A DNA stretch of 14,097 nt from NCBI GenBank assembly GCA_022579005.1, contig MU401496.1, forward strand, positions 1 through 14,097, in the 5' to 3' direction. The notes below the pieces were generated by a model. It did no database searches, was not told where the DNA came from, and saw only the letters and a list, made by a program, of their open reading frames with translations. This DNA comes from Poronia punctata. Its lineage: Eukaryota > Ascomycota > Sordariomycetes > Xylariales > Xylariaceae. Made by a program: the position numbers and the translations under genes. Shown here in pieces: positions 351 through 10,231 of the stretch. Numbering within the stretch: the stretch's first letter is position 1; each line of letters opens with the position of its first letter.

Positions 351-360
351 AAAAAAAAAA
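351..360 (-). terminator. Probable RNA polymerase III terminator of the tRNA gene
   Basis: Ten consecutive A on the plus strand are ten T in the direction of tRNA transcription, starting 33 nt beyond the tRNA 3' end. A run of five or more T is the standard eukaryotic Pol III stop signal. No earlier T run of four or more lies between the tRNA end and this tract, and none long enough lies inside the insert, so a transcript could run through the interrupted gene and stop here. Confidence 0.65.
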
Positions 361-403
361 GTAGTTGCATCTGTAGACGACATCAGGAATTGAGCCCAAT
401 GCG

Positions 404-414
404 GGGGTCGAACC
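404..414 (-). promoter_or_regulatory. Pol III B box, overlapping the intron 3' splice site
   Basis: GGTTCGACCCC matches the B-box consensus GGTTCGANNCC. Its first G is the last base of the intron (414) and the rest is exon 2. The insert therefore leaves a complete B box in the DNA and only lengthens the distance to the A box, to roughly 125 bp. TFIIIC is known to tolerate long A-B spacing. Confidence 0.65.
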
Positions 415-504
415 TATAAGGACTTTTGTGTTAGCAAATCTCTTCCCCCTTTATCTGGCTATACCTATAGGGCGGTTAGAATAAATATTAATTACCTAAC
501 TTAC
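414..504 (-). other. Spliceosomal-type intron inside the tRNA T stem
   Basis: The insert begins GTAAGT (504-499), the best fungal donor. It carries GCTAACA with branch motif CTAAC at 434-430, and ends TATAG at 414, about 17 nt after the branch adenosine. Length (91 nt) and layout match the introns in the protein genes of this window. Excision between tRNA positions 52 and 53 joins GCGG to GTTCGACC and rebuilds the T stem exactly. Known eukaryotic nuclear tRNA introns lie next to the anticodon and are cut by tRNA endonuclease, so this position and these borders are not of that class. At 91 nt it is far too short for a group I or II intron. Splicing by the spliceosome is inferred, not shown. 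Confidence 0.72.
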
Positions 505-538
505 CCGCAACCTTGAGATTAAGAGTCTCACGGCTCTA

Positions 539-550
539 CCGATTGAGCTA
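539..550 (-). promoter_or_regulatory. Pol III A box of the tRNA gene
   Basis: TAGCTCAATCGG matches the internal A-box form TRGYNNANNNGG in the D arm. It is intact, which supports this being or recently having been a transcribed tRNA gene. Confidence 0.7.
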
Positions 551-557
551 ACCGGGC

Positions 558-7277: not shown

Positions 7278-10231
7278 ATGCCCACCATGTTCCGACTTCG
7301 CAGATACCGATACTTTGTCCTCTTCGCCACCATCGTCGTGTTTCTACTTTACCGAGTAGTCCAGAATAGCGATCAATGGGAGGCAGTCTCTGCCTCATTC
7401 CCTAAAGTAGTAGCCCCATCCAAGTTCGATTTCCCGCCCACGAGCGATTCAAATGTCGGGGATAAAGGTGGCTCATCCCAGGGGATGTCTGCCGAGGACC
7501 CTGATCTCCCGCAGAGGATACTAGAGAATACCGGCAAGAACAATCCAGCTGGCACTGTCCCCGACCTCACACCTCCCAACCGTGACCCCGTCACCGACCA
7601 GCACGACGACACCGACGTATCTCACGATCCCACCCTAAAGGACGTGGATGTCAAGGCATACGACCATGATGAAGCGTCCAAATCCACCACGGCTACGGGT
7701 ATTGGTCTTCCCGATCCCAAAGTAGCTGCATGGGCCGCAGATACCTACGAGGCCCAAGGCAATGCACTAACTACAGAAACCCACTGGAAAAAGGTTCGCG
7801 AGAACTTTCCTGTTCCCAAAGACGATGTCATTCCGCTTCCCGCCGGGAAGCCAAAGAAGATACCGACTATACAATATGCATTTGAGAAAGAATCGCTCGA
7901 TATTCGGGAGGTCCGCGAGGCGCGCCAATCATTGGTCAAGGCTGAGATGGAACGTAGTTGGGCGGGCTATTGGCAGTACGCTCGGGGTCATGACGAATTG
8001 AGGCCCGTTACCAAAAAGTTCCGCGACCCATTTTGCGGCTGGGCCGCTACGCTGGTGGATTCGCTCGATACGCTTTGGATTATGGGCATGGAGGATGAAT
8101 TCAAAGAGGCTCTCGAGGAGGTTGAAAGAATCGACTTCACCATCAGCCAGCGAAGTCAGATACCCGTTTTTGAGACGACGATTCGATACCTAGGCGGTCT
8201 GATTGCAGCTTACGACGTAAGCGGTGGTCCGAATGGCGGTTTCGACGTCCTTCTCCGGAAGGCAGTTGAGTTGGCAGAGATCTTGATGGGCGTGTTTGAC
8301 ACACCGAATCGTATGCCCGTACTCTATTACGACTGGAAGCCCCAATCCGCGTCCAAGCCCAAGAGGGCGAGCACTGGTGTCAGTGTTGCTGAGCTGGGCT
8401 CACTTGCGATGGAGTTCACCCGACTCGCACAGATCACAAAGGAGAACAAGTACTACGATGCAGTGGCGCGTATCACCGATGCGTTTTATGAATGGCAGGA
8501 AAGGGGCACCTCGATTCCTGGCATCTTCCCTGAACATGTCGATGCGAGCGGGTGCAACCGTACCGCACAGGCCGCACTCGAGGCTGCCCAAAGCAAGGCG
8601 GAAAGTGAGACAAATGACGCCAATCGGCGCACAAAGGCTGTTCTCGACGGGGATGACGAACTGGACCTTGAGATGGGTGACAAGACGCTGCACGGCGGCT
8701 TCGATAAGGCCGTATCTCGCATCGCCAGACGGGCTGGCAAGGGTTCCTCGCTAAATTTCGACATACCCAAGAGGAAGAACCCGCTGACTGGTAAGATGGA
8801 GCTCGTGGCGGCAGGTGAAGGCAGTTTGCCCGACTGTGTAGCCCAAGGCTTGGCCTCGAGGGGCTATGGAGGAGAGGAATACAGCATGGGCGGCTCTCAA
8901 GACTCGACTTACGAATACTTCCCGAAGCAGTGGCTACTCCTGGGCGGCTTGGAGCCCAAGTATAAGGAACTACACCTTAGAGTTAGCGAGGCGGTCAAGA
9001 AATGGTTGCTGTACCGGCCCATGGTGCCTGATAACCGTAACATCCTCTTCTCCGGAAAGATCTTCACGACCGGAGACCCAGAGACGGATGCCGTGACTGA
9101 ATACGAGGTCACACACCTTACGTGCTTCCTCGGAGGCATGTTTGCTATGGGTGGAAAGATCTTTGAGGTCCCAGCTGACGTGGAAATCGGCAAGAAGCTC
9201 ACCGATGGCTGCGTATGGGCGTACGAAGCTACAGAGACGGGTATAATGCCCGAGGGTGCCAAGGTACTACCATGCGACAATGTCAAGACCTGTCATTGGA
9301 ACCAGACTCGCTGGGAACAGGCAATCGATCCACTCTACGATAGCCGTCGAGAACAGCTGGACAGTTACTACGAGCGCAAGGAAAAGGCGAAAATAGCCGC
9401 AGCAAAAGAAAAGGAACGGCAAAGTCTCGAAAAGGAAACCGAAGAGGAGGTAGACACCGAAAAGGCCAACATTGCTGGATTACAGAAGAGGGCGCCAGTT
9501 ACCACCCCCGGAGACTCGGATGAGGAGACACAGGAAACGTCAGGCGGAGACACAAAATCAAAGGCATATCACAATGACGAGGGCGACACCGATCCTGCTC
9601 CAGGGTTCGTCAAGTCGTCTAAAGCTCAAGTTCCCCTCAAGAGTGACGAGGACAAAGATGAGGACCCTTACCGTCCATTGTCACACGAAGAATTTGTAGC
9701 CAACAAGATGGGAATCGAACACTTGCCCAAGGGGTTTGTCGAAATAACGTCGAAATCTTATATTTTAAGGCAAGAGTTCCCCTTTCTATTTTTTCCCCCA
9801 TGTCGTACGATGGCTAACTTTATTCGTCGGCAGACCTGAAGCGATCGAGTCGGTCTGGTACATGTACCGGATAACGGGAGATCGGAAATGGCAGGACAAG
9901 GGCTGGAAGATGTTTGAGGCCATCGTTCGCCACACAAGCACGACGGTCGGAAATAGCGCCATTGACAATGTCTTGTCGCCGGATCCCCTGCAGGTGAATG
10001 AAATGGAGAGCTTCTGGACTGCCGAGACATTGAAATACTTTTATCTTTTGTAAGTTGTGCCATCCTTCCTTTCGCTCCTTCTCCTTCTCCAGCCCTAGCG
10101 AATTTCGACGCATCGTGGCCCTAACTCTTGCGAATAGATACTCGGACCCAGATGTCATCAGTCTGGACCAATGGGTTTTGAACACTGAAGCACACCCCTT
10201 CAAACGGCCAAAGTCGTCATTTGCTGTATGA
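7278..10231 (+). CDS. GH47 class I alpha-1,2-mannosidase, type II membrane protein
   Basis: It trims alpha-1,2-linked mannose from N-glycans in the ER or Golgi lumen. Exons are 7278-9769, 9834-10049 and 10138-10231 (933 aa). Intron 1 is GC-AG, intron 2 is GTAAGT...TAG with CTAAC. Residues about 10-27 form one membrane anchor after a basic start. A disordered stem follows, then the GH47 domain from about 225. Catalytic residues are present: E299 in [11 protein letters not shown]542 in QDSTYEYF, E833 in LRPEAIES and calcium-binding T919 in [23 protein letters not shown] and the conserved cysteine pair C616/C645 also match. A charged, low-complexity insert of roughly 120 residues (about 690-815) sits before the RPE motif, making it longer than the yeast or human ER enzymes. 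A second ATG at 7287 has better context (CACCATG). All active-site groups argue for a working mannosidase rather than a degraded copy. I cannot separate ER from Golgi subtype. Confidence 0.96.
9770..9833 (+). other. Noncanonical GC-AG intron of the mannosidase gene
   Basis: The 64-nt intron starts AG|GCAAGA and ends GGCAG, with branch motif GCTAAC at 9813-9818. It splits the Arg codon of the LRPE motif (TTA AG|A CCT GAA), just before the catalytic base E833. No GT donor nearby keeps the frame into this motif. GC-AG introns are a known minor class spliced by the major spliceosome. If retained, the reading frame continues 23 codons and stops at 9837-9839, losing the base and the calcium site. 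Confidence 0.9.

Follow-up and report, generated by a model that had tools for sequence, protein, structure and literature searches.

Introns of nuclear tRNA genes are taught as a matter for a protein endonuclease and a ligase, apart from the spliceosome (PMC13149111). Among the closest described systems, the U6 RNA of S. pombe is made by Pol III and contains an mRNA-type intron that is removed by the spliceosome (PMC8917221, which refers to Tani and Ohshima for the original reports of this intron), while ectopic T-arm introns have been described at 53/54 in Cyanidioschyzon merolae (PMC9602550) and, with quoted lengths of 3-24 nt, in nucleomorphs (PMC4090602). The tRNA-Lys(CUU) genes of Poronia punctata that we analyse here resemble S. 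pombe U6 in that an mRNA-type intron would be carried by a putative Pol III transcript. However, U6 is a spliceosome part without a cloverleaf, whereas the host in P. punctata is a tRNA, and the intron splits both the T stem and the B box, in nine paralogous genes; the U6 gene found in P. punctata is itself intronless. Canonical eukaryotic tRNA introns are likewise found in nuclear tRNA genes, but they lie at 37/38 and are handled by the tRNA splicing endonuclease, whereas the inserts in the P. punctata Lys(CUU) genes lie at 52/53, carry GT-AG and branch signals and have no strict BHB junction. With C. merolae and the nucleomorphs they share a T-arm intron in a nuclear-type tRNA; the cited portions of those two sources name no spliceosomal signals, in contrast to the strong signals and the length of 59-91 nt of the P. 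punctata inserts. Among the matches listed in a search of the open-access literature (titles and abstract openings; most subscription journals and all preprints were outside its scope), none was found to describe a nuclear tRNA gene with a spliceosomal intron. The genes described below very probably extend a known oddity, the mRNA-type intron in a Pol III RNA, to a tRNA.

Nine of fifteen tRNA-Lys(CUU) genes are interrupted in the T stem

The host genome is a P. punctata (Xylariaceae) assembly of 573 contigs, and the gene at issue lies near the start of its contig within the window, that is, the whole stretch of 14,097 nt that was analysed. At gathering scores, the sole RNA that cmscan detected in the window was an RF00005 tRNA, which occupies minus-strand positions 557-393 and scores 36.8 bits against a gathering score of 29. 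It would read the lysine codon AAG with the anticodon CUU, and the alignment places an insert in its T arm; ARAGORN did not call this gene, whether introns were allowed or not. An earlier note, made from the letters of the window, had claimed a 91-nt insert between tRNA positions 52 and 53 with GTAAGT, GCTAACA and TAG, and both the coordinates and the signals proved to be exactly as claimed, according to cmscan and the sequence itself (Table 1). Given the joined exons, ARAGORN returned tRNA-Lys(ctt) for all nine insert-bearing copies, including that of the window. As the window insert starts and ends in G, its junction can be slid by one base each way, and GT-AG boundaries are obtained only in the register GCGG/GTAAGT...TAG/GTTCG.

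Table 1. Positions of the tRNA-Lys(CUU) gene parts and of the protein-gene intron used for comparison, in window coordinates
Feature	Position	Strand	Remark
tRNA-Lys(CUU) exon 1, positions 1-52 plus one extra C (533/532)	505..557	-	otherwise same as 14 other copies
A box TAGCTCAATCGG, Pol III internal promoter	539..550	-	present in 15/15 copies
Anticodon CTT	523-521	-	within exon 1
Helix P0 (possible), exon-1 side GGTTGC just upstream of 5' splice site	507..512	-	inferred structure
91-nt insert, read as U2-type spliceosomal intron	414..504	-	between T-stem positions 52 and 53
5' splice site GTAAGT	499..504	-	sequence
Branch-point-like GCTAACA, putative branch A at 431, 17 nt upstream of intron end	429..435	-	
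3' splice site TAG	414..416	-	sequence
B box GGTTCGACCCC, rebuilt from last intron G and exon 2	404..414	-	B box in 15/15 copies
Exon 2, positions 53-73: T loop, 3' side of T stem, acceptor stem	393..413	-	identical in 9/9 insert-bearing copies
HP1: acceptor 3' strand GCATTGGG can pair with trailer CCTGATG and next base	381..402	-	
Helix P0 (possible), trailer side GCAACT, one G-U	363..368	-	window match P = 0.095 (shuffling)
T10 run, Pol III terminator	351..360	-	T5+ run ends trailer in 15/15 copies
Comparator: GH47 protein-gene intron, GTAAGT...CCCTAACTC...TAG (CTAAC)	10050..10137	+	joined, gives last 60 residues of deposited protein P0001

Comparison with the other tRNA-Lys(CUU) loci of the genome, a check that the note had proposed, returned the same 15 places by a genome-wide DNA search and by a pattern search allowing up to three mismatches (reversed control, 0 matches), and all 15 were inspected with their flanks. 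Six of them (L043-L048) are uninterrupted 73-nt genes that score 70.3 bits (five copies) or 68.2 bits (one copy) against RF00005, while the other nine (L049-L057, the window gene being L057) have an insert at exactly one common site, 52/53, with a length of 59-66 nt in eight copies and of 91 nt in the window copy. The nine interrupted genes occupy nine distinct places across eight contigs. When given these nine genes unspliced, ARAGORN missed five, truncated two with a false T arm and called two with a misplaced intron. The insert is not a product of chance, because nine copies share its site and its branch motif is enriched over shuffled sequences, as detailed below.

The window copy is the worst preserved among the nine intron copies. 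It has one surplus C between the D stem and the anticodon stem (533/532) that is absent from the 14 other copies, and the sequence GAGCCGTGAG belongs to the window copy only. In addition, its trailer shows no clear second hairpin, termed HP2 (380-361), and differs at the base 3' of CCTGATG. The extra C and the unclear HP2 could stem either from genuine decay or from a sequencing error close to where the contig begins.

Elsewhere in the window, positions 1-140 contain homopolymer runs of T29 and A40, which are typical of a contig end, and a 39-bp tandem repeat of 3.9 copies (1425-1576) lies within the open frame 1326-2066, which has no Pfam match. In the GH47 region 7278-9833, 64 residues that are open in exon 1 are missing from the deposited protein P0001, and a GC-AG reading (9770-9833) is available for the intron that follows; an error in the deposited gene model is possible.

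Splice signals, promoter elements and conservation

A U2-type intron has GT...AG ends with a 5' site complementary to U1. All nine inserts begin with GTRAGY, namely GTAAGT in seven copies, GTAAGC in one and GTGAGT in one, and all nine end in AG, as TAG in eight copies and AAG in one. A YTRAY motif is present 8-22 nt upstream of the 3' end in eight of the nine inserts against 1.43 expected, a count that was reached in none of 20,000 shuffles, and the stricter YTAAC is present in seven against 0.44 expected, likewise equalled in none of 20,000 shuffles. The ninth insert, which has no YTRAY, has CTAAG, and with this motif included a branch-like A lies 13-17 nt upstream of the end in every copy. 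Thus, the 5' site, the AG end and a branch motif close to the 3' site were all found in the inserts. An information content of 2.0 bits is reached at intron positions 1, 2, 4 and 5 and at the final two; positions 3 and 6, like the third-last and fourth-last, have 1.5 bits. A further 22 positions near the ends were examined, 14 of them on the 5' side and 8 on the 3' side, and these stay below 0.8 bits apart from two unaligned columns, namely position 17 (1.5) and the eleventh-last (1.0). The likeness to protein-gene introns of the window that the earlier note had remarked on was recovered in the GH47 intron, with its GTAAGT, CTAAC and TAG, this single intron being the comparator rather than a genome-wide intron consensus.

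Outside the signals, the inserts have diverged strongly. Mean pairwise identity is 0.26 among intron interiors (0.20 shuffled), 0.24 over 100 nt of 5' flank (0.22 shuffled) and 0.50 over 100 nt of 3' flank (0.23 shuffled), as opposed to 0.99-1.00 in the exons, which are 73/73 identical in eight of the nine intron copies. L049 and L056, whose introns are the most alike among all 36 pairs, have an intron identity of only 0.66 and yet no exon difference in 73 nt. The exon constraint of a functional tRNA gene was accordingly found in the intron copies, with the window copy deviating by its extra C. Because mainly exons and splice signals have been kept, the conservation has the pattern expected of introns in use, and the reading of the insert as an mRNA-type intron, first made on the window gene, gains support past the window from nine of the 15 tRNA-Lys(CUU) genes. 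Kinship remains visible among some of the introns, as ACATGTTCAAATC or variants of it occur in L049, L050, L054 and L056. All nine intron copies have U68, whereas five of the six intronless copies have C68, the sixth, L048, being intronless with U68. It is most likely that the intron was gained once in the U68 lineage of tRNA-Lys(CUU) genes and then spread with the gene copies, in which case L048 would represent either the state before intron gain or a loss of the intron.

With respect to transcription, the genes were compared with the consensus sequences of the A box and the B box, and all 15 are predicted to be type-2 Pol III genes, having both boxes and a terminating T run. The B box GGTTCGACCC is present in 15 of 15 genes and is rebuilt with the final intron G in the intron copies. 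A run of at least five T lies 32-51 nt 3' of the tRNA in all 15 tRNA-Lys(CUU) genes, compared with a median of 16.5 nt to T5 in other tRNA genes (among the 49 listed, with those lacking T5 in the fetched flank excluded). None of the nine inserts has five T in a row, which would halt Pol III, and one has T4; avoidance of T runs in the introns was nevertheless discarded as evidence for Pol III, as the observed 1 against 2.3 expected (P = 0.30) is not below chance.

A B-box-like GTTCAAATC lies within the introns of L049 and L050 (gene-relative nt 63-72), near the native distance from A box to B box, and its counterpart in L054 and L056 is related but altered. We considered that this intronic element might serve as a second promoter element.

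Similar introns were sought elsewhere as well. The same-junction pattern gave eight matches genome-wide, namely six of the known Lys(CUU) copies together with L073 and L077, and the latter two were rejected as further intron-bearing tRNAs, neither being a tRNA at the Rfam gathering score. L077 is part of a dispersed repeat that was matched over about 40-150 nt at 25 places and contains a B-box-like GGTTCGATTCC; on contigs C50, C51, C82 and C168, its copies come in pairs with a spacing of about 250-310 bases. By eye, the end of L073 resembles this repeat, and L073 is absent from the 25 places. ARAGORN found a T-arm insert in none of the other 49 RF00005 places, which derive from the best 63 of 2574 candidates, a list from which the window gene is absent. 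Among the best candidates of each search, U6 (one gene), SRP RNA (one) and 5S RNA (47 scored) matched end to end with no large insert, and thus no second kind of Pol III gene with such introns was found here. Pattern scans of viral contigs gave one chance match and then none, and that of a general collection of genome contigs one chance match. L078, a coding-like sequence in which ARAGORN found no tRNA, was rejected as a relative, and L079 was judged by eye to be a chance match.

Removal of the insert and competing explanations

Given these features, we consider it likely that the nine genes are functional nuclear tRNA-Lys(CUU) genes whose T stem is split by a U2-type spliceosomal intron and whose transcripts are made by Pol III and spliced by the spliceosome. 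The nine tRNA copies probably have to be spliced in this way, and not by the usual tRNA-splicing enzymes. Spliceosome dependence, as raised in the earlier note, can hold for these nine genes and does not extend to the whole isoacceptor, which has six intronless copies. We infer the following order of steps. By way of the A box and the B box rebuilt across AG/G, Pol III would transcribe both exons, the intron between them and a structured trailer, and transcription would end at the T run. The spliceosome would then excise the intron, branching at the CTAAC-like A, and splicing would join GCGG to GTTCGACC, so that the T arm and the elbow could form. RNase P, RNase Z and the enzymes that modify the T arm would act only after splicing.

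A rival explanation is that the nine copies are pseudogenes which share one intron-like insertion and are unspliced or silent; the six intact tRNA-Lys(CUU) genes, which could supply all tRNA-Lys(CUU), speak for it. The window copy, with its extra C and degraded HP2, would fit such a scenario. For eukaryotes, the cited part of PMC4090602 notes that insertions in the D or T arm mostly affect a single tRNA gene out of many synonymous ones, and such genes are supposed there to be pseudogenes. However, the insert is present in 9 of 15 genes, that is, in most copies, and exons are identical in eight of the nine alongside near-background introns and 5' flanks, with the splice signals retained; homogenisation by gene conversion would need to halt at the splice sites. 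The pairing of HP2 has also been maintained despite sequence change in 14 copies, eight of them intron-bearing. We therefore regard the pseudogene explanation as unlikely.

It seems even less probable that the tRNA splicing endonuclease and a ligase remove the inserts, in the manner of archaeal non-canonical introns, with a GT-AG appearance that is coincidental. The endonuclease is presumably present, given the ordinary anticodon-loop introns in the Lys(UUU), Ala(UGC) and Leu genes of this genome, and the T-arm introns of C. merolae and the nucleomorphs are precedents for the location, with a removal mechanism that both sources leave open in their cited parts. Moreover, with G-U pairs counted, the central BHB helix in the canonical register has 3 of 4 pairs in eight copies and 4 of 4 in L056. 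The outer helix, on the other hand, has just 1 of 3 pairs at the GT-AG boundary in all nine copies, and the strict BHB motif (two 3-nt bulges, a 4-bp helix and flanking helices) is absent from the insert junctions of all nine; none of the boundary shifts and bulge sizes tried, by which relaxed BHB forms were partly covered, completes all three helices. The insert is also at 52/53 in nine of nine copies and not at the 37/38 position of canonical tRNA introns, and the endonuclease route leaves unexplained why GTRAGY, a branch-like motif and AG persist amid diverged interiors. Spliceosomal splicing is normally coupled to Pol II, and this usual coupling would favour a scenario in which Pol II makes longer, mRNA-like spliced RNAs from these loci with the tRNA as a by-product. 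We think this scenario very improbable, as each of the 15 genes has both Pol III boxes and, 32-51 nt past the tRNA, a T5+ run, and as the intron copies are barely more alike than shuffled sequence over the 100 nt upstream.

The structured trailer and the meaning of a probable mRNA-type tRNA intron

All 15 genes, intron-bearing or not, have a trailer ahead of the terminator (window 392-361) with the potential to form the hairpin HP1. With G-U counted, an HP1 run of eight pairs is found in 15 of 15 Lys(CUU) genes versus 3 of 49 other tRNA genes, while with Watson-Crick pairs only it keeps eight pairs in five intronless copies but has 4-5 in the ten remaining genes (4 in the window), the latter values falling within the range of other tRNA genes (1-6). 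For HP2, whose arms are 7 nt long, the 14 copies counted (window excluded) show 11 distinct arm pairs, which amounts to strong covariation; the arms are 98.7% paired versus 73% when re-dealt, a value reached in 0 of 10,000 trials, with the observed value favoured by arms that were picked by eye as hairpins. A possible third helix, P0, would involve GGTTGC, which spans the variable loop and the start of the T stem. A six-pair complement of it follows HP2 in 7 of 9 intron copies versus 0 of 6 intronless ones (Fisher P = 0.007, for copies that are related), and the lowest P for any individual copy is not below 0.029. The trailer as a whole was rejected as an intron-specific device, since HP1 and HP2 also occur in intronless copies and only P0 is enriched with the intron.

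We speculate, with considerable doubt, that splicing acts as a folding switch, in which the trailer would hold the RNA in an alternative fold until removal of the intron by the spliceosome releases the cloverleaf. In the unspliced RNA, HP1 would capture the 3' strand of the acceptor stem and P0 would form between GGTTGC and the trailer GCARCC, with HP2 as a spacer; this fold might block tRNA-processing enzymes and hold the splice sites close. Intron removal would then build the T stem and, with the trailer removed too, the cloverleaf would be released. In predicted folds of the unspliced RNA, HP1 has a probability above 0.5 in six of nine copies, the exceptions being L053, L056 and L057, and L053 is a predicted exception to the switch, with an acceptor-stem probability of 0.84 even when unspliced. 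In predicted folds of the spliced RNA that retains the trailer, HP1 wins in seven of nine copies, and in intronless RNA in two of six. A simple switch driven by splicing alone is thus not borne out by the predicted folding energies; besides splicing, it would take either loss of the trailer or the help of a chaperone. Should such a switch operate, the supply of the tRNA for lysine AAG codons would be tied to the capacity of the spliceosome.

If the proposed splicing route is true, these genes also point to a blind spot in annotation, given that the analysis of noncanonical introns in tRNAscan-SE 2.0 is described for candidates from archaeal search models (PMC8450103, in the part cited) and given the failures of ARAGORN on the nine unspliced genes. 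Furthermore, if most genes of one tRNA family need the spliceosome, the division of labour between the endonuclease and the spliceosome breaks down. An abundant Pol III housekeeping RNA could then be spliced in the manner of an mRNA, and the decoding of AAG in Poronia punctata would be linked to its splicing capacity.
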